A DNA stretch of 21,513 nucleotides from a virus. The DNA lies in IMG/VR virus record IMGVR_UViG_3300031510_000813, positions 1 to 21,513 of that record. One strand, written 5' to 3'. A model generated the notes under the pieces. That model did not search any database, was not told the DNA's origin, and was given only the letters and a program-made list of their open reading frames with translations. Of this stretch, positions 5,785 to 21,280 are shown piece by piece (position 1 is the first letter of the stretch; the number at the start of each line of letters is the position of its first letter). The position numbers were made by a program, and so were the translations under genes.

Positions 5785-6275
5785 AAATAAAACAATTTAA
5801 ACTAACTAATAATGATGAAATAATATGTGAAGTCTTGGAATGGGACACTGGCGAAGATGCTGGAGATGTGTTAGTTAAAAAAGCCTTAAGAGTTGTTGGC
5901 GTAGAAGACTATCAAAAAGGATGGAGGTTCTTTTGTTTTAGACCATGGATGTGCTTTCAAGATGATCCGGAGTCTTTACAAACTTTAAATTCTGCACACA
6001 TAATTGTAACAACTAATCCTTCTCCAGATATATTAAAACATTATAAAACATGCATTACAAGAATTGAAGAAGACTTAAAATTAAATAGAAATACTAAAAG
6101 AAAAGCATATGCTAATTTAGATGAAATACAAGAAGAACTAAGAGATCTAACAGATGATGAAATGGATGATTTCTTATCTAATAAATATGGTGCTACTGAA
6201 GAAGTTCCGTATTCTTTAGACTCAGACGATGGCAAGATAATCAAGTTGTTTAAAAAGAAACCAAGCTTGCATTAA
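5781..6275 (+). CDS. Conserved-type hypothetical protein coupled to uvsW
   Basis: I do not recognise a named family for this 164-residue protein. The first 80 residues look like a small beta barrel: KIKQFKLTNNDEIICEVLEW, a strand LVKKALRVVGVE, then a Trp/Phe-rich WRFFCFRPWMCFQDD and SAHIIVTTNPS. This is reminiscent of Sm-like or SH3-like folds found beside uvsW in marine T4-like phages. The second half is a charged helix (about 90-150) with an acidic DDEMDDFLSNKYG segment and a basic end (KLFKKKPSL). The start overlaps the uvsW stop by ATGA, so it is co-translated and probably part of the late recombination unit. A nucleic-acid or protein adaptor role is a guess. Confidence 0.7.
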   Translation: MKIKQFKLTNNDEIICEVLEWDTGEDAGDVLVKKALRVVGVEDYQKGWRFFCFRPWMCFQDDPESLQTLNSAHIIVTTNPSPDILKHYKTCITRIEEDLKLNRNTKRKAYANLDEIQEELRDLTDDEMDDFLSNKYGATEEVPYSLDSDDGKIIKLFKKKPSLH

Positions 6276-6278
6276 ATA

Positions 6279-6304
6279 AGTATATCCCCTTCTCCCCGTA
6301 TACT
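6279..6304. other. Inverted repeat after the uvsW operon
   Basis: AGTATA (6279-6284) and TATACT (6299-6304) flank a 14-base pyrimidine loop with two CCCC runs around TTCT. On + it is followed by CTTTTATTAT and could be a weak terminator. On - it would form a hairpin with two GGGG runs in the loop at the very 5' end of RNA made from the facing promoter. Confidence 0.45.
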
Positions 6305-6309
6305 CTTTT

Positions 6310-6338
6310 ATTATACCATAGATTCACACAAATGTACA
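6310..6338 (-). promoter_or_regulatory. Minus-strand sigma70-like promoter, antisense to the uvsW operon
   Basis: Read on the minus strand this is TGTACA, a 17-base spacer ending in ATGG, then TATAAT, with TTTG following the -35 box. It matches the + strand promoters at 10179 and 18558 base for base in these elements. Transcription would start near 6303 and run left into the 3' end of the gene at 5781-6275. No plausible minus-strand gene lies there, so the product would be an antisense or small RNA. Confidence 0.65.
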
Positions 6339-6373
6339 CTATTATATTTTTAATTAAGAGAGAAATTAAACAG

Positions 6374-6402
6374 TGTACTTTTACGTAAAATCAGTGTATA
6401 AT
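6374..6402 (+). promoter_or_regulatory. Early-type promoter for the gp55-gp46 operon
   Basis: TGTACT (6374-6379), a 17-base spacer, then TATAAT (6397-6402), with TTTAC after the -35 and AATACTAT after the -10, as in the related sites. Transcription start is predicted near A6409. It stands back to back with the minus-strand promoter, the two -35 boxes being 35 bases apart. Confidence 0.75.
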
Positions 6403-6415
6403 AATACTATAAAAT

Positions 6416-6420
6416 AAAGG
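6416..6420 (+). promoter_or_regulatory. Ribosome binding site deciding the gp55 start
   Basis: AAAGG lies 8 bases before the ATG at 6429 but only 2 bases before the ATG at 6423, so the downstream ATG is preferred. Confidence 0.7.
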
Positions 6421-6428
6421 TTATGATA

Positions 6429-7013
6429 ATGGCACGCAAAAAAAGTATACACTATGTTAACAATTCTGACTTCTCTAGCGCAGTAGTCGAATATGTTGAA
6501 AGAGTTGTAATCGCACGAGATAATGAAACTAAAATTCCTACAGTCCCAGACTATGTTGCTCAATGCTTCTTAAAAATAGCTGAAGGTTTATCGCATAAAG
6601 GAAACTTTATAAGATATACTTATAGAGAAGAAATGGTTATGGATGCTGTTGAAAATTGTTTAAAGGCGATTAGCAACTATAATTTAGAAGCAGCAACCAG
6701 AACTGGTAAACCAAATGCATTTGCATATTTTACTCAGATAACATGGTATGCTTTCTTAAGAAGAATATCAAAAGAAAAAAAACAACAAGAAATTAAACTT
6801 AATTATTTAGCTAAATCTGGTATTGAAAATTTTATTGACATGGGTACTGAAGCTGTAGCTTCTAATCAAGCATCACGGTTTGTTGATACACTTAAAGATA
6901 GAATTGCAAGAGTACGTAATACAGATAATCAAGTAAAAGAAATAGTTAAGAAAGAAAAAAAGAAACGCAAAGTAAAATTAGCGGATTCAGATTTAAGCGT
7001 GTTTATGCAATGA
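6429..7013 (+). CDS. 55: Late-transcription sigma factor gp55
   Basis: gp55 is the small sigma-like subunit that directs host RNA polymerase to TATAAATA late promoters, with help from the sliding clamp gp45 and the coactivator gp33. This 194-residue protein (T4: 185) has the family pattern HYVNNSDF near the start, CFLKIAEGLSHKGNFIRYTYREEMVMDAVENCLKAISNYN (core helices), PNAFAYFTQITWYAFLRRISKEKK (resembling sigma region 2) and a basic C-terminal stretch. The final LSVFMQ is a short hydrophobic-acidic tail like the clamp-binding end of T4 gp55. The start at 6429 is chosen over 6423 on ribosome-site spacing. It is the first gene after an early-type promoter, so late transcription factors are made before late genes. 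The stop overlaps the next ATG. Confidence 0.93.
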   Translation: MARKKSIHYVNNSDFSSAVVEYVERVVIARDNETKIPTVPDYVAQCFLKIAEGLSHKGNFIRYTYREEMVMDAVENCLKAISNYNLEAATRTGKPNAFAYFTQITWYAFLRRISKEKKQQEIKLNYLAKSGIENFIDMGTEAVASNQASRFVDTLKDRIARVRNTDNQVKEIVKKEKKKRKVKLADSDLSVFMQ

Positions 7014-7432
7014 AGGTAGGTATTACAGCATCTACATTTGATTTATTACACGCTGGTCATATTGAAATGTTAAGAGAAGCAAAGGATCATTGTGAATATT
7101 TAATATGCGCTTTACAGATTGATCCTTCTATTGATAGAATAGAAAAAAATAAACCTGTTCAAACAATAGTTGAAAGATACACACAGCTATCTGCAGTTAG
7201 ATTTGTAGATGAAGTTATTCCATACATGTACGAAAATGATCTTATAGATATACTTTCTATGAGAAATATAGACGTACGCATACTAGGTGAAGAATATAGA
7301 GAAAAAGACTTTACAGGAAGAGATATTTGTAAAGCACGTGATATAGAATTGTACTTTAATAAAAGAGAACATAGATTTAGTACAAGTGATTTAAGAAAGA
7401 GAATAACGAATGAAAATAGCAATACTCAATGA
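7010..7432 (+). CDS. TagD-like cytidylyltransferase (nucleotidyltransferase)
   Basis: This is a small cytidylyltransferase-fold enzyme of 140 residues, similar in size to glycerol-3-phosphate cytidylyltransferase. It shows the N-terminal ITASTFDLLHAGH with the nucleotide-binding HAGH (14-17), ERYTQLSAVRFVDEVIPY (55-72), GEEYREKDFTGR (93-104) and the C-terminal FSTSDLRKRI (123-132), which matches the ISTT-type motif. The expected reaction is CTP plus an alcohol phosphate giving a CDP-alcohol. The physiological substrate is not readable here. The gene is coupled by ATGA to gp55 and overlaps gp47 by 23 bases, so it is embedded in a replication/recombination operon. It may serve modified lipid or polyol metabolism or surface sugar synthesis. 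Confidence 0.85.
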   Translation: MKVGITASTFDLLHAGHIEMLREAKDHCEYLICALQIDPSIDRIEKNKPVQTIVERYTQLSAVRFVDEVIPYMYENDLIDILSMRNIDVRILGEEYREKDFTGRDICKARDIELYFNKREHRFSTSDLRKRITNENSNTQ

Positions 7433-8468: not shown

Positions 8469-10165
8469 TAAATTTTAAATCTATAAAATATAAGAACTTT
8501 TTATCTTCTGGAAATTCTTTCACTGAGATACCTTTGAATAAAGATAAGTCAACACTTATTGTTGGTCATAATGGTGCTGGTAAATCAACCATGTTAGATG
8601 CTATATCGTTTGCATTGTTTGGCAAACCTCATCGTAAAATTATGAAGAACCAATTAGTTAATTCTATAAATCAAAAGCAAGCAGTAGTTGAAGTAGAGTT
8701 TTCAGTAGGTGCAGCACAGTTTAAAATCATAAGAGGCATAAAGCCAAACATATTTGAAATATGGAAAGATGGTGCTATGATCAACCAATCTTCTCATTCA
8801 TTAGAATATCAGAAGATCCTTGAGCAAAATATATTAAAACTTAATCATAAAAGTTTTCATCAAGTAGTTGTCTTAGGTTCATCTTCTTTCATACCTTTTA
8901 TGCAACTGAATGCAGGCCATCGTAGGAATGTTATTGAAGATCTCCTAGATATTAATATTTTTTCTAAGATGAATCTTATTATAAGAGAAAGAAATTCTAT
9001 ATTAAAAGAAAGCATTACTAGAATAAGTAATGATACTAATATCGTAAAAAGTAAAATAGAACAGCAAGCAAAATATATTAGAGATATCGCTGCTCTTACC
9101 AAAGAGAATAGAAACAAATATGAAAATCAAATTGCAACTGCAAGAGAAAGAATAAAGAAACTTCAAATACAAAATAGTGAATTGAGTTTAGCACTCGAAT
9201 CTAGTACAGCAATTGATGAACTAAAAAAACTACAAACACAAAAGAATAAAGTTATAGGTGAAATTGCTACTATAAAACAAGAAATGAAATCAGTTGCAAA
9301 ACGTGGTATGTTTCTAGAAAAGAATGATGAGTGTCCTACATGTGATCAGCCTATAGCTAACAAAGATAAACTTATTTCAGAAACAAGAAGTGAAGCTCAA
9401 AAAGTCCAATCATCTCTAAATACAGTAGAAGTTAATGGTAATTCTATTGACACAAACATATTAGCATTAGAAGAAATCATTAAAGACGTAAAAGAAAAAA
9501 CAGATACTATTAATGCAAATAATAGAGAGATCGTTTCAGTAAATCAAAACAACGATGAGTTACAAAAGTATTTAGAAAGTGAAGTATCGGCTGATCTAAC
9601 TGGTGCACGTAACGACTTAGAAACTATGAATAGCGATAAAGAAAGTTTATTTGAAGAGAAGCTTAAGTTAAACGAACAGTTCGGTTATAACAATGTTATT
9701 GCTGAAATGTTAAGAGATACTGGTATTAAGACAAAAATTATTAAACAGTATTTGCCTACTATTAATAAACTTGTTAATCAGTTCTTGCAAACTCTGGACT
9801 TCTTCGTTTCTTTCAACTTAGATGAAAATTTTAATGAAACAATAAAGTCTAGACACAGAGATGATTTTACTTATGATTCTTTTAGTGAAGGCGAAAAGCA
9901 AAGGATCGATTTATCTTTATTATTTACATGGAGGCAAATCGCTAAAATGAAAAATTCAGTATCAACTAATCTATTGGTACTTGATGAAACATTTGATTCA
10001 TCACTTGATCATGATGGTATTGAAAACTTATTAAAAATACTATCCATGATGGACGCTAATAGTAATACCTTTATTATATCTCATAAAGGAGACATATTAG
10101 ATGGTAAGTTTGAGTCCAAGATTGAATTTGTAAAAGATAGAAATTTTTCTAAGATAAAAAATTAA
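8465..10165 (+). CDS. 46: Recombination endonuclease subunit gp46 (Rad50/SbcC-like)
   Basis: This is the ABC-type ATPase of the gp46/47 nuclease. At 566 residues (T4: 560) it has the split head typical of the family: Walker A G34-HNGAGKS-T42, a long coiled coil from about 170 to 430 interrupted by the zinc hook C290-P-T-C293, signature SEGEK (474-478) and Walker B LLVLDETFD (503-511) followed by the D-loop SSLDHDG. The hook lets two molecules join tip to tip around zinc, and ATP controls nuclease access to DNA ends. It is the last gene of the operon. The next promoter begins 14 bases after its stop, with no obvious terminator between them. Confidence 0.96.
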   Translation: MINFKSIKYKNFLSSGNSFTEIPLNKDKSTLIVGHNGAGKSTMLDAISFALFGKPHRKIMKNQLVNSINQKQAVVEVEFSVGAAQFKIIRGIKPNIFEIWKDGAMINQSSHSLEYQKILEQNILKLNHKSFHQVVVLGSSSFIPFMQLNAGHRRNVIEDLLDINIFSKMNLIIRERNSILKESITRISNDTNIVKSKIEQQAKYIRDIAALTKENRNKYENQIATARERIKKLQIQNSELSLALESSTAIDELKKLQTQKNKVIGEIATIKQEMKSVAKRGMFLEKNDECPTCDQPIANKDKLISETRSEAQKVQSSLNTVEVNGNSIDTNILALEEIIKDVKEKTDTINANNREIVSVNQNNDELQKYLESEVSADLTGARNDLETMNSDKESLFEEKLKLNEQFGYNNVIAEMLRDTGIKTKIIKQYLPTINKLVNQFLQTLDFFVSFNLDENFNETIKSRHRDDFTYDSFSEGEKQRIDLSLLFTWRQIAKMKNSVSTNLLVLDETFDSSLDHDGIENLLKILSMMDANSNTFIISHKGDILDGKFESKIEFVKDRNFSKIKN

Positions 10166-10178
10166 ATGAAATTAACTG

Positions 10179-10207
10179 TGTACATTTGCACAAATCTATG
10201 GTATAAT
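10179..10207 (+). promoter_or_regulatory. Early-type promoter for the sliding-clamp operon
   Basis: TGTACA (10179-10184), a 17-base spacer opening TTTGCA and ending ATGG, then TATAAT (10202-10207). TGG before the -10 makes it an extended -10 promoter. Predicted start is A10214, leaving a 29-base leader with AAGGAAGG before the gp45 ATG. Confidence 0.85.
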
Positions 10208-10242
10208 ATTATTATAAAATACAAAAAGGAAGGTTATTAATT

Positions 10243-10920
10243 ATGGAATTAAGTGAAAGCACTTTACAGGTTTTAAGAAACTTTTCAGGCATTAATCAAA
10301 ATATATTGATTAAATCTGGATCGAATATTAAAACTATTAGTGAAGCAAGAAACGTAGTAGCAACTGCCGATGTTACCGAAAGTTTCGAAAAAGATTTCGG
10401 CATATACGATTTAAACGAATTTATTGGAGTAATAGGATTAGTCAATTCTCCTAGTTTAAAATTCGAAGATCACTCTGTTACTGTTTCTGATGCATCTGGT
10501 AGATCTAAAGTAAATTACTTTTATGCTGCCGAAGAAACATTAACGGCACCTACAAAAGATGTTACTATGCCAGAGGCTGATGTTAAGTTTGTATTAGATA
10601 ATGATACACTAAACAAATTGAAAAAAGCTGCATCAACTTTAGGTCACACCGAAGTATCAATACAAGCAAAAGATGGTGTATTAAGCTTATCAGTTCTTGA
10701 GAATAAAAATCCAACATCAAATGCATTTTCGATTGACATTGATGGCGAGTTTAAACAAGACGCTGTGTTTAACTTTATCATAAGTATTTCTAATCTTAAG
10801 ATCCTACCAGGTGATTATGAAGTAGAAATATCTTCTAAATTAATAACGCAATTTAAAAATAAAGAAATACCTTTAAAGTATTGGATTGCACTTGAAAAAT
10901 CTTCAACATACGGAGCATAA
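10243..10920 (+). CDS. 45: DNA polymerase sliding clamp gp45
   Basis: This is the trimeric ring that tethers gp43 to DNA and, in T4, also activates late transcription through gp55 and gp33. At 225 residues it is nearly the T4 length (228). Shared stretches include the opening LSESTLQVLRNFSGINQNILIKSG (3-26), FGIYDLNEFIGVIGLVNSP (about 52-70) and the C-terminal FNFIISISNLKILPGDYEVEISS (about 176-198). A strong AAGGAAGG element and a dedicated promoter suit a protein needed in quantity. It heads the replisome operon and is followed 4 bases later by a small gene. Confidence 0.95.
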   Translation: MELSESTLQVLRNFSGINQNILIKSGSNIKTISEARNVVATADVTESFEKDFGIYDLNEFIGVIGLVNSPSLKFEDHSVTVSDASGRSKVNYFYAAEETLTAPTKDVTMPEADVKFVLDNDTLNKLKKAASTLGHTEVSIQAKDGVLSLSVLENKNPTSNAFSIDIDGEFKQDAVFNFIISISNLKILPGDYEVEISSKLITQFKNKEIPLKYWIALEKSSTYGA

Positions 10921-13492: not shown

Positions 13493-13903
13493 ATGACTAA
13501 GAACTTTTTATACCCAAGAAACGCTTTTTTGGGATTCGATCACATTTTCGACCAGCTAGAAAATATTCATAGCCACGCGAAAGATACATACCCACCATAT
13601 AATGTAGTTAAACACGACAATATGAAATATGAAATTGAGATGGCAGTAGCCGGATTCAAAAAAGAACATATCGATATTGAAGTAAAAGACCACGTTATGA
13701 ACATTATTGGTAATAGACCTAAGCGTAGAGAACAAGACGCGTATGTCCATAAAGGTATTAGTGCTCGAAAGTTTTCAAGATCATTTAGACTGTCCGAATA
13801 TACGGAAGTAAATGGTGCTGACATTCAGGACGGCATACTATCTGTTCAATTAAAGGTAGTCCTACCAGAAGAGAAGCGACCTCGTAAAATTTCAATTAAT
13901 TAA
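13493..13903 (+). CDS. hsp20: Small heat shock protein Hsp20 (IbpA-like)
   Basis: This is a 136-residue alpha-crystallin chaperone, which holds unfolding proteins in an ATP-independent way. It aligns with the E. coli IbpA pattern: N-terminal GFDHIFDQLEN (14-24), YPPYNVVKHDNMKYEIEMAVAGF (33-55), ISARKFSRSFRLSEY, GILSVQLKVVLPEEKRPRKISI, and the C-terminal I-x-I anchor (133-135) used for oligomer assembly. A strong AGGAGG is 5 bases before the ATG. Hsp20 genes are common in marine T4-like phages and probably protect phage or host proteins or aid assembly. The promoter is uncertain: the leader holds a TATATATT run and a GC-rich hairpin, which may matter for control. Confidence 0.95.
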   Translation: MTKNFLYPRNAFLGFDHIFDQLENIHSHAKDTYPPYNVVKHDNMKYEIEMAVAGFKKEHIDIEVKDHVMNIIGNRPKRREQDAYVHKGISARKFSRSFRLSEYTEVNGADIQDGILSVQLKVVLPEEKRPRKISIN

Positions 13904-15443: not shown

Positions 15444-16049
15444 ATGAAAAATTTTAAAACATACTTAGAAGAAGCTGCCGGAAAAGGTTTAACTATATTT
15501 GACATAGATGAAACTATGTTTATTACTAAAGCAAAAGTACACATAGTTAAAAACGGTAAAATTATCAAGAAGCTTGATAACCAAGAATTTAACACTTATA
15601 AGAAAAAATCTGGTGAAGAATACGATTTTGGTGAATTTAAAAATGCTGAAGTTTTTCAAAAGACTTCCACACCAATAGCAAGAATGATTAACAAAGTTAA
15701 GATGATACTTAAGAATGCTACAAAGGCAGGATCAAAAGTTATTATTGTAACAGCTAGACCTAACTTTGATAATAAGAAAACATTTCTAGATACATTTAGA
15801 AATCAAGGAATTGACATAGATAAAATCTATGTTGAACGTGCTGGCAATCTTGGAACTGGTCCAGCAGCAGATAACAAGAAAGTCATTTTTAAAAAATATT
15901 TAGATCAAAAAATATACAAAAGAATAAGATTATTTGATGATGCTATGTCAAATTTAAAAATGTTCAATTCATTACAAAAAGACTATCCGGATGTTTCCTT
16001 TGAAGCATTCCTAGCAAAACCAAACGGCTCTATTTCTAGAGTACGTTAA
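15444..16049 (+). CDS. HAD-superfamily phosphatase-like protein
   Basis: This 201-residue protein carries the four HAD motifs: D20-I-D22-E-T24 (nucleophile and acid/base Asp), T103 in VTARP, Lys145/146 in the DNKKVIFKKY segment, and D165-D166 in LFDDAMSN. It should hydrolyse a phosphomonoester, with the substrate unknown. The N-terminus MKNFKTYLEEAAGK is unlike an ordinary HAD start and resembles the T4 capsid-targeting sequence, as does the upstream gene. No ribosome site precedes the ATG, and the predicted RNA starts 3 bases before it, so translation may be leaderless. The next Met lies within motif I. It heads an operon with nucleoside uptake and salvage genes, so a nucleotidase role is attractive but unproven. 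Confidence 0.8.
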   Translation: MKNFKTYLEEAAGKGLTIFDIDETMFITKAKVHIVKNGKIIKKLDNQEFNTYKKKSGEEYDFGEFKNAEVFQKTSTPIARMINKVKMILKNATKAGSKVIIVTARPNFDNKKTFLDTFRNQGIDIDKIYVERAGNLGTGPAADNKKVIFKKYLDQKIYKRIRLFDDAMSNLKMFNSLQKDYPDVSFEAFLAKPNGSISRVR

Positions 16050-16061
16050 CAGGAGATAATT

Positions 16062-17132
16062 ATGAATATGAAGACCATCGCGGCAGTGGCGACACTGGCA
16101 TCTTTGTTCTGTTTTTCGGCTTTTTCAGCTGAAAAAATTAAAATTGGATTTATCTATGTTGGCCCTACTGGCGATCATGGATGGACATATAGACACGACA
16201 TTGGAAGACAAGATGTTGAAAAACATTTTGGAGATAAAGTCAAAACTAAATACATTGAATCTGTATCAGAAGGTCCAGATGCAGAAAGAGTTATGCGGTC
16301 AATGGCTATGGAAGGTATGGATATTATATTCGCAACTTCTTTTGGTTACATGAATAGTATGGTAAAAGTTGCAAAAGAATTTCCAAATGTAAAATTTGAA
16401 CATGCTACAGGATACAAACAAGGACCTAACTTATCAACTTATGGATTAAGATTATATCAAGCAAGACATGTACAAGGTGTTATTGCTGGTATGATGACTA
16501 AAACTAATAAGATTTGTTATGTTGGTGCATTTCCTATTCCTGAAGTTATCAGAGAAATTAATACATATTACTTAGGTGCTAAGAGCGTAAATCCAGATGT
16601 TGATATCGATATTATTTGGGTAAACACTTGGTACAATCCTGTTAAAGAAGGCGAAGCTGCAAAAGTTTTAATTGCACAAGGTTGTGATATGGTTGCTCAA
16701 CATACAGATTCACCTTCACCATTACAAGTTGCAGAAAAATTAGGTAAATTTGGATTTGGACAAGCATCAGATCAAATGAAATTTGCTCCTAAAGCTCAGT
16801 TAACTGCAACTATTGACAACTGGTCACCTTACTATATTGCAAGAGTACAAGCAGTATTAGACGGTACATGGAAGTCAGGAGACTACTTTGGTGGTATGAT
16901 TGATGGCACTGTTGAAATGGCACCGTTTGCAAATATGCCTGCAGACGTTGAAGCACATGCTGCTAAGATAAAAGAAAGTATTAAGAATGGCAAGTACTAT
17001 GCTTTTACTGGACCTATCAAAGACAACAATGGCAAGTTACAATTAAAAGACGGCGAAATTGCTGATGATGCACATCTAAATAGTATGATGTACTATGTTG
17101 AAGGCATCGATGCTAAAGTACCTGGTAATTAA
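16062..17132 (+). CDS. BMP/PnrA-family periplasmic substrate-binding protein
   Basis: This is a complete 356-residue solute-binding protein of the basic membrane protein (Med/PnrA) family, whose characterised members bind purine nucleosides for ABC importers. It has a Sec signal peptide (MNMKTIAAVATLASLFCFSA, then FSAEK) with no clear lipobox Cys, so it is probably soluble in the periplasm. The mature part shows IGFIYVGPTGDHGWTYRHDIGR (about 28-49), MDIIFATSFGYM, GLRLYQARHVQGVIAGMMT and ATIDNWSPYYIA, all typical. AGGAG (16051-16055) lies 6 bases before this ATG. No permease or ATPase gene is adjacent, so it would have to work with a host transporter. This is an auxiliary metabolic gene of evident bacterial origin. 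Its ligand, nucleoside or another small molecule, cannot be read from the sequence. Confidence 0.93.
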   Translation: MNMKTIAAVATLASLFCFSAFSAEKIKIGFIYVGPTGDHGWTYRHDIGRQDVEKHFGDKVKTKYIESVSEGPDAERVMRSMAMEGMDIIFATSFGYMNSMVKVAKEFPNVKFEHATGYKQGPNLSTYGLRLYQARHVQGVIAGMMTKTNKICYVGAFPIPEVIREINTYYLGAKSVNPDVDIDIIWVNTWYNPVKEGEAAKVLIAQGCDMVAQHTDSPSPLQVAEKLGKFGFGQASDQMKFAPKAQLTATIDNWSPYYIARVQAVLDGTWKSGDYFGGMIDGTVEMAPFANMPADVEAHAAKIKESIKNGKYYAFTGPIKDNNGKLQLKDGEIADDAHLNSMMYYVEGIDAKVPGN

Positions 17133-17134
17133 AA

Positions 17135-17995
17135 ATGATTCCAGTAATTGATTTTAAAGGTCCGAATGTACTGGAAAAAATACGCAAAGCTTATACGACT
17201 GTAGGCTTTGCAGTTTTCACTAACACACTACAAAATAAAGATCAAACCACAATGAATGTTTGGTTTGATTTAATGAAAGAATTCTTTAAGCAAGATTTAG
17301 AAAAGAAAAACGAATACAAATATCAAGCTGAAAACAATCTAGGTTATACAGTTATGGGCGCAGAAAATGTAGATCCAGACGCGCCAAAAGATATGAAAGA
17401 AAGCTTTAATTATAATAATAGTAGAATGCCTAGTGAATTATGGCCTACTTTAAACGGATTTAAAGCAACAGCATTACAGACTATTGATATTGCAGATAGA
17501 CTTACATTAAAAATATTAGAAAAGTTTGATGAGATTTTAGATACAGGATCATTATTAACTAAAGCACATATAAAACCGTATAACACAACTCGAGTTATAC
17601 ATTATCCTGCATATGATGGTCCATTAGAACATAAACAAATGAGAATAGGAGAACATAGTGACTATGGTACTATTACTTTACTTTGGCAAATTAATGATGT
17701 TCCTGGGCTCCAAGTCCAAGACCTACAAAAAACATGGCACCCGGTCCCGTATGCAAATGATGGAGTAGTTGTTAATATTGGCGACTTACTACAGCGTTGG
17801 ACTAACGATTATTTTGTAAGTACAAAACACAGAGTAGTTAATAGTCATATACATACACCAAGATATAGTATGGCACACTTTGTTGATCCAGAACCTGGAA
17901 CAATAGTACAAAATTTATCTAAGATTAAACTTGATCAATACAAACCTATCGAAAGTAGGCAATACTTAATGAACAGATTAGCACAGAGTTATTAA
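17135..17995 (+). CDS. 2-oxoglutarate/Fe(II) oxygenase, isopenicillin N synthase-like family
   Basis: This is a 286-residue non-haem iron oxygenase. The N-terminal DIOX_N-type region (IPVIDFKG ... FFKQDLEKKNEY, 2-61) is followed by the double-stranded beta-helix core with the iron triad H174-S-D176 (GEHSDYGTITLL) and H232 (STKHRV), plus R243-Y-S245 for binding 2-oxoglutarate. These support an active oxygenase. This family includes thymine 7-hydroxylase and bacterial enzymes of unknown substrate, so oxidation of a nucleobase is possible given its neighbours. The start lies 2 bases after the BMP stop and its stop overlaps the APRT start, so all three are made together. A GC-richer patch near 17700-17755 differs from the surrounding codon use. 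Confidence 0.9.
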   Translation: MIPVIDFKGPNVLEKIRKAYTTVGFAVFTNTLQNKDQTTMNVWFDLMKEFFKQDLEKKNEYKYQAENNLGYTVMGAENVDPDAPKDMKESFNYNNSRMPSELWPTLNGFKATALQTIDIADRLTLKILEKFDEILDTGSLLTKAHIKPYNTTRVIHYPAYDGPLEHKQMRIGEHSDYGTITLLWQINDVPGLQVQDLQKTWHPVPYANDGVVVNIGDLLQRWTNDYFVSTKHRVVNSHIHTPRYSMAHFVDPEPGTIVQNLSKIKLDQYKPIESRQYLMNRLAQSY

Positions 17996-18525
17996 TGAAA
18001 ATTAAACATTATATTAAAAGTTACAAAGACTTTCCAGTTGCTGGTGTAGACTTTAAAGACATATCAAGTCTGTGTAATAGCAATGGATTAAAATTAGCAT
18101 GTGACTTAATGGAAAAACAACTCGTATTCCATATGTGTAACTCTATACCAAAGATATTAGCATTAGATGCAAGAGGGTTTATATTCGGTAGTATTATTGC
18201 TGATAGAAACAATCTTAATTTAGTGTTATGCCGTAAAAAAGGTAAGTTACCTGGAGAAACTATTAAAAAAAATTTACAACTTGAATACGGCAATTCTACA
18301 TTAGAATTACAAAAAGATACTATAAAGACCGATGATGACATTATTATCATTGATGACTTAATGGCTACAGGCGGAACAGTCATAGCAGCTATTGAAATGG
18401 TTAAAGAGCTAGGCGGCAACATATCTGCTGTTGCATGCGCAATAGACTTACCAGACTTAGGTGGAAGTGACAAGATAAAAAATCTTGGTATTCCATTTTA
18501 TACAGGTGTAGAATATCTCGACTAG
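17995..18525 (+). CDS. apt: Adenine phosphoribosyltransferase
   Basis: This is a purine-salvage enzyme: adenine plus PRPP gives AMP plus pyrophosphate. At 176 residues it matches the usual length. Landmarks are FPVAGVDFKDISSL (13-26), LDARGFIFG (57-65), RKKGKLPGETI (80-90), the PRPP motif IIIIDDLMATGGT (116-128) with D120 and D121, and a C-terminal GIPFYTGVEYLD. The ATG lies on the last base of the oxygenase stop, so it is translationally coupled. Together with the BMP binding protein it points to scavenging of adenine or adenosine-derived base for phage nucleotide pools. A related specificity (other 6-aminopurines) cannot be excluded. Confidence 0.93.
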   Translation: MKIKHYIKSYKDFPVAGVDFKDISSLCNSNGLKLACDLMEKQLVFHMCNSIPKILALDARGFIFGSIIADRNNLNLVLCRKKGKLPGETIKKNLQLEYGNSTLELQKDTIKTDDDIIIIDDLMATGGTVIAAIEMVKELGGNISAVACAIDLPDLGGSDKIKNLGIPFYTGVEYLD

Positions 18526-18808: not shown

Positions 18809-21280
18809 ATGGCTTTTTATACTAACCTTTATCGATATAAAAGTAACATATACTATCGTGGCTATTCAACTAAAGGCGATAGAGTTACTAAAAAAGATCA
18901 TTACGAACCAAAGTTCTGGGTTACTACACCAGATGAAACTGGTTACACTAGTATTGATGGCCATAATGTTGGATCAATAAACTTTAATAGTATGTACGAA
19001 GCTGGACAGTGGTTGCGTGATAACCTCGAAGTTTCAGGTAGAAAAATTTATGGTAATAAAAGATACATATCACAGTACGTAATGGAAAACTTTCCAACTG
19101 ATATTCAATTTGATCGTAGCGCAATTAACGTTGGTACATTTGATATCGAAACAGATTATGACGATGGCTTTCCACATCCCGATCAAGCAGCTCATAAAAT
19201 ACTATCAATATCGTATAAGTCTAGTAAATTTTCAACATATCACGTGTGGGGTTATGGCGATTTTGATATTAAAGCAGCTCTTATAACCGATGTTAAATAT
19301 ACTCAATGTAATAGTGAAGAAGAACTTCTTACTAAATTTATAGAATTCTGGTCAAATCCAGATATTACACCTGATGTCATCACGGGCTGGAATACAAGAT
19401 TTTTCGATATACCTTACGTACTAAATCGTACAAAGCAGGTTTTAGGTGAAGAATATTTACATAAGTTTTCTCCTTATGGTTTACTAATACCACCACCAAG
19501 ACCTGTTACGTATCGTGGTAGAGAAAATCTAGTTTATGAAATACCAGGTATTCAAACATTAGATTATATGGAACTATTTCAAAAGTTTGGTTATACGTAT
19601 GGCCCTCAAGAATCATATGCATTAAATCATATTGCTTATGTTGTCCTCGGTGAAAAGAAACTTTCATACGATGAATCAGGTTCACTTAAAAATCTATATA
19701 AAGATGATCATCAAAAGTACATCGACTATAATATGAAAGATGTTCAACTCGTTGATAGACTCGAAGAAAAACTTGGATTGATTACGTTGGCTATTACTAT
19801 GGCTTATAAAGGCGGTGTTAATTTCCAAGACACATTTGGTGTAACTGCTATATGGGAATCGATTATTTGTAGAAAACTATATCAAAGTAAAGTTATTCCG
19901 CCACTTACACAAAAGTATGATGACTATCAAATTCAAGATGGTAAAACTAATATTGCTGGTGGATATGTTAAAGACCCTATTGCTGGTAAATATCAGTGGG
20001 TAGTATCATTTGATTTAAATTCACTGTATCCTAATATCATTGTACAAAATAATATGTCACCAGAAACAAGAGTTAATCGTATTGATGATCCATCTAAATT
20101 TGCAAGAGCTGCAAATGAAACATATTATCGTAAAGACTTTCAAGGTGTACTACCAAAAATTATTGAAGAATATTATGATGAGCGTGTATCTATTAAAAAT
20201 ATGATGTTAGCTGCAAAAGCTGAAGAGCAAAAAGGTTATACATCTGCACTAGATAAAGAAATAAGTAACTTAGAAAACAGGCAGATGGCTATTAAGATTC
20301 TACTTAATAGTTTATATGGTGCACTTGCTAATAAACACTTTTTATACTTCAGTACAGGATTAGCCGAAGGCGTAACACTTACTGGCCAAAAAGCAATTAA
20401 ACATGCTGAAGTTACGATGAACACTGAATTAAATAAGTTACTTAAATCTGATAAAGATTATGTGATTGCAATCGATACCGATTCTTTATATGTTAACTTT
20501 GGTCCATTGGTAGAGCAATTTGCTCCAAATAATCCAGTTTTATTCTTAGATAAAATATGTAAAGAACATTTTGAACCTGCTATTGGAAAAGCATATGCTA
20601 AGTTTTTTGAAATGCATAACGCATATAAAAACAGAATGGTTATGGCAAGAGAAGCAATATCAGATGTTGGTATTTGGACTGCAAAGAAACGATATATACT
20701 TAACGTACATAATAATGAAGGCGTACAATATGCTGAACCTAAACTTAAGATTATGGGTATTGAAGCTATTAAGTCATCAACACCAGAAATTGTACGTAAT
20801 AAATTTAAAGAAGCATTTAAGCTTATAATATCTGGTACTGAAAAAGAAACACAAACGTTTATTGCTAACTTTAAAGCTGAGTTTAAAAGTTTAAATCCAG
20901 AAGCTATAGCTTTTCCACGTGGAGTTAGTAACATAACAGATTGGCACGATCGAAAAACTATATTTAAGAAAAGCTGTCCAATACATGTTCGTGGATCATT
21001 GCTGCATAATTATTATCTTAAACAAAATAAACTAAATGACAAATATGAACTTATACAAAATGGTGATAGAATTAAATTTGTATATCTAAAACTACCAAAC
21101 ACTATAAGACAAAATATAATATCATTTAAAGATGTGTTACCTAAAGAATTAAAGTTACACAATTATATTAATTATGATTTACAATTCGAAAAAACATTTA
21201 TCGAACCACTAAATCTAATACTTAACCCAATTGGCTGGTCAGCCGAAGAACAAGCAACACTGGAGGATTTTTTCGTATGA
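18809..21280 (+). CDS. 43: Replicative DNA polymerase gp43 (family B)
   Basis: This is the phage replicative polymerase with a 3'-5' proofreading exonuclease. At 823 residues it is shorter than T4 (898) but complete: Exo I D112-I-E114 (FDIETDYDDG), Exo II GWNTRFFDIPYVLNR, Exo III YIDYNMKDVQLVDRLE, polymerase motif A with D402 (FDLNSLYPNII), motif B K496-ILLNSLYGAL and motif C D556-T-D558 (AIDTDSLYV). It uses the gp45 clamp through its C-terminus, ending LEDFFV, a plausible short clamp-binding tail. Its ribosome site is weak (a CGGAA stretch about 10-15 bases upstream), so translation may be coupled to the small gene before it. T4 gp43 represses its own translation. Whether this one does is not visible. 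The stop overlaps the next ATG. Confidence 0.97.
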   Translation: MAFYTNLYRYKSNIYYRGYSTKGDRVTKKDHYEPKFWVTTPDETGYTSIDGHNVGSINFNSMYEAGQWLRDNLEVSGRKIYGNKRYISQYVMENFPTDIQFDRSAINVGTFDIETDYDDGFPHPDQAAHKILSISYKSSKFSTYHVWGYGDFDIKAALITDVKYTQCNSEEELLTKFIEFWSNPDITPDVITGWNTRFFDIPYVLNRTKQVLGEEYLHKFSPYGLLIPPPRPVTYRGRENLVYEIPGIQTLDYMELFQKFGYTYGPQESYALNHIAYVVLGEKKLSYDESGSLKNLYKDDHQKYIDYNMKDVQLVDRLEEKLGLITLAITMAYKGGVNFQDTFGVTAIWESIICRKLYQSKVIPPLTQKYDDYQIQDGKTNIAGGYVKDPIAGKYQWVVSFDLNSLYPNIIVQNNMSPETRVNRIDDPSKFARAANETYYRKDFQGVLPKIIEEYYDERVSIKNMMLAAKAEEQKGYTSALDKEISNLENRQMAIKILLNSLYGALANKHFLYFSTGLAEGVTLTGQKAIKHAEVTMNTELNKLLKSDKDYVIAIDTDSLYVNFGPLVEQFAPNNPVLFLDKICKEHFEPAIGKAYAKFFEMHNAYKNRMVMAREAISDVGIWTAKKRYILNVHNNEGVQYAEPKLKIMGIEAIKSSTPEIVRNKFKEAFKLIISGTEKETQTFIANFKAEFKSLNPEAIAFPRGVSNITDWHDRKTIFKKSCPIHVRGSLLHNYYLKQNKLNDKYELIQNGDRIKFVYLKLPNTIRQNIISFKDVLPKELKLHNYINYDLQFEKTFIEPLNLILNPIGWSAEEQATLEDFFV

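Follow-up and report, generated by a model that had tools for sequence, protein, structure and literature searches.

A recurrent phage gene pair encoding a BMP-family binding protein and a 2-oxoglutarate/Fe(II) oxygenase: a candidate cassette for purine-nucleobase scavenging

Introduction

Why would a virus carry a BMP-family solute-binding protein, a 2-oxoglutarate (2OG)/Fe(II) oxygenase and an adenine phosphoribosyltransferase in three abutting genes? The question is raised by the IMG/VR virus record IMGVR_UViG_3300031510_000813, of which positions 1 to 21,513 were analysed (this whole stretch of 21,513 nucleotides is called the window below) and which holds the three genes, named here BMP, OXY and APRT, on the plus strand at 16062-18525. 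An earlier note on this DNA had read them as one cassette for the import of a nucleoside or modified nucleobase, its oxidation and the salvage of adenine. We found that the conserved unit is the BMP-OXY pair, with APRT as a less constant third member, and it is on balance probable that they form a phage-borne cassette for purine-nucleobase scavenging, in which a base would be bound, imported via a host permease, oxidised and salvaged.

Results

Three intact and abutting genes

The three genes, and the signals belonging to BMP, lie in the window as follows.

16051..16056, plus strand: likely ribosome-binding site of the BMP gene, AGGAGA, read by eye in the sequence
16062..17132, plus strand: BMP-family solute-binding protein of 356 amino acids, purine-nucleobase subgroup (Pfam, PDB, pocket and fold)
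16062..16130, plus strand: putative Sec-type signal peptide, end approximate (by eye, from the translation and an alignment of relatives)
17135..17995, plus strand: OXY, 2OG/Fe(II) oxygenase of 286 amino acids, thymine-7-hydroxylase-like (Pfam, PDB, residues and fold)
17995..18525, plus strand: APRT, adenine phosphoribosyltransferase of 176 amino acids (NCBIfam models, nearest PDB chains and the loop for phosphoribosyl pyrophosphate, PRPP)

All three genes are intact, with a gap of 2 bases between BMP and OXY and an overlap of 1 base between OXY and APRT, an arrangement pointed out earlier and confirmed by the open reading frames and by Pfam. BMP scores 169.6 bits against Bmp PF02608 (cut-off 24.1), and a hydrophobic N terminus was read by eye in the BMP translations. 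OXY matches 2OG-FeII_Oxy PF03171 (70.7 bits, cut-off 23) and DIOX_N PF14226 (57.1 bits, cut-off 27.3); these two domains, together with an HxD...H triad and its Arg, place it among the 2OG/Fe(II) oxygenases of the DIOX_N type. APRT matches Pribosyltran PF00156 (45.6 bits, cut-off 26.3), its nearest PDB chains are adenine phosphoribosyltransferases (5b6h, E 8.7e-36), and the PRPP loop IIIIDDLMATGGT is present, in keeping with the intact motif that had been attributed to it. Two of the five main NCBIfam models for this enzyme were passed, namely NF002634 (171.5 bits for a cut-off of 170) and NF002636 (163.3 for 125), while the protein stays below the cut-offs of TIGR01090 (155.7 for 185.85), NF002632 and NF002633. 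The ratio of nonsynonymous to synonymous substitution rates (dN/dS) was 0.10-0.20 in five comparisons of the window with loci L004 or L007, and 0.05-0.09 in two comparisons of L047 with L060; the cassette genes are under strong purifying selection.

BMP and OXY are a conserved pair across viral records

Viral relatives were collected by two scans of IMG/VR, one with the window BMP (197 confirmed stretches, best 80 kept) and one with an alignment of 24 viral OXY proteins (198 stretches, best 80 kept); distant members are under-sampled because the best 80 were retained in each case. Removal by hand, from contig names, of 22 loci repeating a contig gave 134 records, that is 133 contigs and the window. 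Four records with a BMP identical to that of the window (L001, L002, L003 and L012) were kept, and two of the 134 (L088 and L091) hold neither gene.

BMP is present in 129 of the 134 records, OXY in 127 and both in 124. The two genes are directly adjacent in 117 of these 124 and separated by one to four genes in the other seven, with a median intergenic distance of -1 base; the distance is 10 bases or less in 112 of the 117 adjacent pairs, often with an overlap. The linkage holds from either side: OXY is visible in 75 of the 80 loci found via BMP, the remaining five ending about 150 bases or less past BMP, and BMP is visible in 47 of the 50 further records found via OXY. Among the three that lack it, the contig stops short in L188 and L236, and the genuine exception is L229. 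Since the pair recurs, the linkage is more than chance, and a fortuitous adjacency of BMP and OXY was rejected on this ground. The trio noted in the window also recurs in other records.

The pair sits in several gene neighbourhoods (HAD, LYS, gp62, gp44 and similar names are working labels, LYS being lysozyme-like by eye). The T4-like one has the order HAD-BMP-OXY-APRT-gp43, and the HAD cluster lies immediately 5' of BMP in 30 of 132 records; the same position is taken by the lysozyme-like gene in 17 records and by a GTP cyclohydrolase I cluster in 13, and in L069 a phosphoribosyltransferase gene lies 5' of the pair. A Gp23-family capsid gene was detected in four of the 50 carrier records tested, most of which are fragments (the four contigs measure 328, 316, 117 and 30 kb). 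The window itself has genes for a family B polymerase, a clamp loader and a capsid protein whose matches are T4-like major head proteins. As a unit found in several phage lineages along with hallmark genes, the pair is a phage auxiliary metabolic gene cassette.

Among isolated phage records we obtained 14 matches for BMP, one for OXY and 16 for APRT, all below 60% identity and all but one unannotated, and no cultured phage with the BMP-OXY-APRT trio was found among these matches. In Phage C48C1, which is absent from the BMP and OXY matches, an APRT-like protein (31%) is encoded next to genes for ribonucleotide reductase.

BMP groups with purine-nucleobase binders

The nearest PDB entries to BMP are 3s99 (E 1.4e-122) and AtzT, 6pi5 (E 1.1e-107), with the next far behind (1.3e-21). 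An AlphaFold2 model of BMP (predicted local distance difference test, pLDDT, 81.7) gave the same ranking in Foldseek, 3s99 followed by AtzT, with nucleoside complexes behind. In AtzT, Tyr45 and Trp194 sandwich the guanine, and Ser97, the backbone of Phe98, Glu165, Asn218 and Asn220 also take part; the dissociation constants are about 110 nM for guanine and 2.5 uM for adenine, and in 3s99, from Brucella, adenine was modelled in the site (PMC6834077).

Nine AtzT site positions read W,S,F,R,E,E,W,H,D in five viral rows, in SAR116 BMP1 and in the alphaproteobacterial locus L100, and W,S,F,R,E,G,W,H,D in 3s99 and in three BMPs from SAR116 ATP-binding cassette (ABC) operons, so that the viral pocket equals that of 3s99 at eight of nine positions. 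AtzT departs from both in having Tyr at the first aromatic position and Asn/Asn instead of His/Asp at the 218/220 pair. With two sandwiching aromatics, the Ser, Phe and Glu, and the 218/220 pair (W,S,F,E,W,H,D, like 3s99), BMP falls in the purine-nucleobase subgroup; it groups with the binders 3s99 and AtzT, by pocket and overall sequence, and its own ligand would be of this class. The one varying position is AtzT 169. Seven of the eight rows whose BMP goes with this type of oxygenase have Glu there and the eighth, from Thalassolituus, has Asp, against Gly in 3s99 and the three SAR116 ABC-operon BMPs; the change could tune the pocket for a modified base.

A place for BMP among nucleoside binders of the PnrA type was not borne out, as guanosine-bound Lbp (28% identity) and PnrA (16-17%) rank behind 3s99 and AtzT. 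The vitamin B6 BMP transporter family NF047927 was rejected as well (60.4 bits for a cut-off of 400). BMP thus shares with AtzT of Pseudomonas sp. ADP and with 3s99 the fold, 49-55% identity and most pocket residues. It differs from both in being phage-encoded and paired with an oxygenase, and from 3s99 in having Glu instead of Gly at the position of AtzT Asn169.

OXY resembles thymine-7-hydroxylase, with two base contacts changed

The nearest solved structure to OXY is the thymine-7-hydroxylase (T7H) of Neurospora crassa, 5c3p, with E 7.7e-26 from the single sequence and 1.6e-38 from a profile. Foldseek ranked 5c3q best with a model of fair quality (pLDDT 72.8), which falls below 50 at residues 171-180, where H174 and D176 lie, and over much of the C terminus. 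H174, D176, H232, R243 and S245 are invariant in 24 viral rows, and the first four align with T7H His214, Asp216, His271 and Arg286, which upholds the intact triad and Arg reported before.

The substrate of T7H is a free base stacked by Phe292 and Tyr217, and its contact residues have been named (PMC4787775). In the alignment OXY keeps N87 (N68), R190 (R153), Y217 (Y177) and F292 (F249), and the other two of the six base contacts differ, with N92 for E122 and D251 for N294. Equivalents of R190, Y217 and F292 are common among 28 aligned rows; outside OXY's own clade N68 is shared with T7H only. Because T7H stacks a free base and OXY keeps the stacking residues, a free base is a reasonable guess for the substrate of OXY, thymine itself less so. 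In all, OXY shares with T7H the 2OG/Fe(II) fold, the metal and 2OG ligands, the stacking Phe and Tyr and the Arg190 equivalent; it differs in being about 34% identical, in having N92 and D251 in place of E122 and N294, and in being linked to a binding protein. A straightforward assignment as a thymine-7-hydroxylase was rejected, given the two changed contacts and a tree in which the two have no supported kinship.

As side observations, OXY of L051 (9068-9925) is split into two frames, by decay or by a sequencing error, and a TauD-type dioxygenase gene, from a second and different 2OG oxygenase family, follows soon after OXY in L232 (4674-5657) and L243 (9291-10199).

Phosphoribosyltransferase companions and the permease

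Of 132 records, 38 have APRT within six called genes of the pair, and 55 have at least one of three phosphoribosyltransferase-like clusters there. When the count is confined to records that hold both genes and show a called gene 3' of OXY, 108 in number, APRT is near in 37 and any such cluster in 54. Phosphoribosyltransferases are therefore frequent but variable companions; of the three-gene cassette proposed earlier, what stands is a recurring phage BMP-OXY pair with purine salvage neighbours, and what does not is APRT as a fixed member. By best match, those phosphoribosyltransferases near the viral pair that could be named are of purine type: APRT, above its cut-off, and a xanthine type, below.

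Four queries for a BMP-type permease, run against 2,666 proteins (with repeats counted) from the viral stretches that were fetched, had no match; the same queries matched each other in bacterial loci. The three SAR116 genomes that were read each hold an operon of the order ATPase-permease-permease-BMP, and its BMP and the viral one share about 51% identity (families tested in L251). Import through the host's own ABC permease, as suggested before, agrees with the lack of a BMP-type permease in the viral stretches, and the use of that permease would follow from the phage seeming to bring none.

Cellular relatives and likely transfer to SAR116

A scan of genome contigs yielded 50 loci, none of which bears a SAR11 or Pelagibacter title. 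The BMP-OXY pair was found in six alphaproteobacterial genomes, five of SAR116 and L100, with identities of about 78% for BMP and 71% for OXY in SAR116 and of 76% and 61% in L100. In the SAR116 locus L096 a xanthine phosphoribosyltransferase gene comes next after the pair (NF006613, 244.9 bits, cut-off 138), an arrangement that L098 shares by sequence, and L095, L097 and L099 have other neighbours. More distantly, in Thalassolituus L101 a BMP (54%) and an OXY (33%) precede a gene of the adenosine deaminase family (NF006850, 541.3 bits for a cut-off of 419). Among 385 sampled genomes of the class of genome G004, a close OXY was found in G004 alone (559 bits; next 151). The 30 loci from this second scan include one SAR116 pair and four with a BMP-like neighbour of 28-32% on the other strand (L162, L164, L165 and L166); the other 25 have no BMP neighbour within 1.5 kb.

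In both gene trees (39 rows) the SAR116 rows are nested inside the viral rows, and the starred branches force at least three label changes. The simplest reading is a transfer from phage to SAR116 chromosomes, a direction suggested by trees whose sole outgroup is very distant. The earlier note had proposed trees with SAR11 and other alphaproteobacterial homologues; the nearest cellular homologues found come from SAR116 and fall inside the viral tree.

A parallel arrangement exists in L254, from one alphaproteobacterial genome: a different IPNS-like oxygenase is flanked by a nucleoside hydrolase gene and a BMP-ABC set, and genes for cytidine deaminase and uracil phosphoribosyltransferase lie farther out. 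These IunH-2OG oxygenase-BMP-ABC operons of L254 and its relatives resemble the viral cassette in placing an IPNS-like oxygenase beside BMP and salvage enzymes. They differ in that the oxygenase, which forms a separate clade, is about 25% and the BMP about 28% identical, in having the full ABC permease in the operon, and in the BMP pocket, since that of L254 lacks most of the purine site (G,G,F,S,L,F,W,G,T).

A candidate mechanism and its alternatives

In the purine-scavenging mechanism that we consider probable, BMP would be secreted to the periplasm and bind a free purine base, adenine-like by its pocket, which would pass to the host's own BMP-type ABC permease. OXY, in the cytoplasm, would oxidise the base with O2 and 2OG, most likely by dealkylation or hydroxylation of a purine not directly usable by salvage enzymes, and APRT, or another phosphoribosyltransferase in other carriers, would turn the product into nucleotide for phage DNA and RNA. 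Many ocean phages with the pair would then apparently feed on free DNA and RNA bases during infection. The adenine-type pocket, APRT and the deaminase-family neighbour together point to adenine chemistry. Perhaps the step catalysed by OXY is a demethylation, attractive because T7H oxidises the methyl group of a base. In E. coli, demethylation of N6-methylated purine bases is described as not established, and the deaminase Add is reported to support growth on them (PMC13296781); as Add offers a hydrolytic route, an oxygenase is not the only way. A narrower proposal is a phage-owned use of N-methylated or N-alkylated purine bases from the nucleic acids of lysed cells, with BMP capturing for instance N6-methyladenine, OXY demethylating the free base, APRT making AMP, and the pair later passing to SAR116. 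It is suggested by the adenine-type pocket with its changed second-shell residue, the T7H-like enzyme and the adenine-using neighbours, and we hold it as a tentative idea, rather unlikely as a whole; if true, OXY would be a free-base purine demethylase unlike AlkB-type enzymes.

Several observations weigh against purine scavenging. With two base contacts changed, the substrate of OXY is not readable from T7H, which has no supported special kinship to it in the tree. No phosphoribosyltransferase-like gene is near the pair in 54 of the 108 records considered above, and one of the clusters counted, k18, is a weak match to this family (17-21 bits, cut-off 26.3). The viral permease search covered stretches of at most 8 kb on each side of the pair. 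BMP and OXY distances agree moderately only (Mantel r 0.41 with 38 rows and 0.33 with 32 viral rows; none of 2000 shuffles as high). Finally, among the 44 cellular relatives of OXY at L101-L144 (26-34% identity), a BMP neighbour was detected for L101 alone and for none of the other 43; because BMP adjoins the oxygenase in just this one of 44, in seven of 30 loci of the L254 type or its relatives and in few of the 30 loci from the 385-genome scan, the oxygenase-BMP association is recurrent but not general in the oxygenase family.

Four other explanations were considered. Purine breakdown for nitrogen or carbon, in which BMP-OXY would feed an oxidative route freeing ring nitrogen and the phosphoribosyltransferase neighbours would serve a parallel need, finds its support in bacteria: in SAR116 L097, and by sequence in L099, the pair is followed by hydantoinase/caprolactamase-like genes (531.8 bits for a cut-off of 1000, which is thus missed), L097 and, by sequence, L095 have a TRZ/ATZ-type deaminase that also stays under its cut-off, an amino-acid-type ABC ATPase was tested in L095, and the Thalassolituus deaminase-family gene follows OXY. 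In the viruses, however, no ring-opening gene is found among the annotated neighbour families, against APRT near the pair in more than a quarter of records, and we judge this explanation unlikely. A pyrimidine route, with OXY as a thymine or pyrimidine hydroxylase and BMP carrying pyrimidines or nucleosides, would agree with T7H being the closest solved structure in sequence and fold alike, and with the nucleoside hydrolase, cytidine deaminase and uracil phosphoribosyltransferase genes of the L254 operon. It appears quite improbable given the purine-base pocket of the viral BMP, the different pocket of the L254 BMP and its 28% identity to the viral protein, the two altered T7H contacts in OXY, and the purine type of the named phosphoribosyltransferases near the viral pair.

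Still less probable is a supply of guanine-type or 7-deazaguanine-type bases as precursors for modified phage DNA. A GTP cyclohydrolase I cluster does lie within six genes of the pair in 21 of 132 records (family tested on one member); in L024 (7262-15263, 328 kb contig) this cluster, a PTPS/QueD-type gene and a QueE-like gene recognised by eye surround BMP-OXY, and L053 (7248-13888, 316 kb contig) is similar, possibly with 7-deazaguanine metabolism, a QueE-like gene being seen by eye in L053 and L219. A Pfam scan found no family for the QueE-like gene of L024, however, the PTPS cluster is near the pair in six of 132 records, and in the window no gene within six of the pair belongs to the GTP cyclohydrolase or PTPS-type clusters; the BMP pocket, moreover, has the His/Asp of the adenine-modelled 3s99 and not the Asn/Asn of guanine-bound AtzT. 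Phages collect metabolic genes in clusters, and BMP and OXY could be unrelated auxiliary genes that are neighbours by chance in one phage lineage, as the partial agreement of their gene trees would allow. With adjacency in 117 of 124 records across several neighbourhoods, and the pair also present in six alphaproteobacterial genomes and, more distantly, in Thalassolituus, this last explanation is already disfavoured and scarcely credible.

Relation to known phage systems

The gene pstS, for a nutrient binding protein, is known in viral genomes (PMC6359870). Like BMP in the proposed mechanism, phage-borne PstS is a binding protein made by the phage for use with uptake machinery of the host; here the cargo would be a purine base and not phosphate, and a processing enzyme is linked. 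Pelagiphages carry 2OG-Fe(II) oxygenase auxiliary genes with a ferrochelatase partner (PMC9599517), a similar case of phage 2OG oxygenases with linked partner genes, and here the partner is BMP, a term ('bmp') absent from the main text of PMC9599517. We found no description of the BMP-OXY pair in the open-licence literature searched; within that literature phage-borne PstS and phage 2OG oxygenases are known kinds and the fixed coupling of BMP to an oxygenase is apparently new.

Purines are nitrogen-rich, and the near-invariant tie of BMP to OXY suggests that these viruses alter which organic nitrogen the host takes up, an effect on the host beyond the handling of phosphate or light. To our knowledge, 2OG oxygenases of marine phages are often listed and seldom given substrates; the proposed mechanism would give a function to a group of them and poses a concrete, assayable question, namely which base OXY acts on. 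The pair is also a likely case of a metabolic unit moving from phage to SAR116 bacteria.

Gene surroundings of the pair

Two further genes frame the trio in the window.

15444..16049, plus strand: HAD-type (polynucleotide-kinase-like) gene just upstream, given as context (phrog_415, E 4.7e-9)
18809..21280, plus strand: DNA polymerase gp43, family B, downstream, marking the T4-like block (PF00136, PF03104)

The MazG-like gene noticed after gp43 was supported as such: its full copy in L002, where BMP is 100% identical to that of the window, matches PF01503 (40.1 bits, cut-off 21.3). For the major capsid protein of the window the best match is Phage C48C1 (67%), followed by Melnitz phages and pelagiphage HTVC008M at around 61%. 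The T4 late-promoter motif was uninformative, with four matches in the window for 5.4 expected, none of them less than 1.8 kb from the trio. Elsewhere in the window we observed a cytidylyltransferase-like gene in the phage replication region (7010-7432; phrog_7878, heptose adenylyltransferase-like) and an Hsp20-type small heat shock gene (13493-13903; phrog_432), which lies within six genes of the pair in 23 records.

Other records show further genes near the pair. Between BMP and OXY, L060 (9120-12546) and L055 (9182-12640) carry genes for an NMT1-type binding protein, an ABC ATPase, a permease and an ASST-like protein, and the same set precedes OXY in L229 (4536-8004). These virus records seem to encode a whole ABC importer (L060 by family tests, L055 assigned by the same clusters). 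L022 has a short Na+/phosphate cotransporter-like gene right after OXY (9989-10456), and L074 a PBP_like_2 binding-protein gene after OXY (5804-6808). A ClpP-type protease gene is near the pair in L046 (9095-9682, by Pfam) and in L053 (10934-11551, best PHROG head maturation protease). Finally, in the 134 kb virus record of L243 (10278-15890), COX1 (PF00115, 529 bits), COX2 and a plastocyanin/azurin-type gene lie 3' of BMP-OXY, a phage-borne set resembling cytochrome c oxidase.

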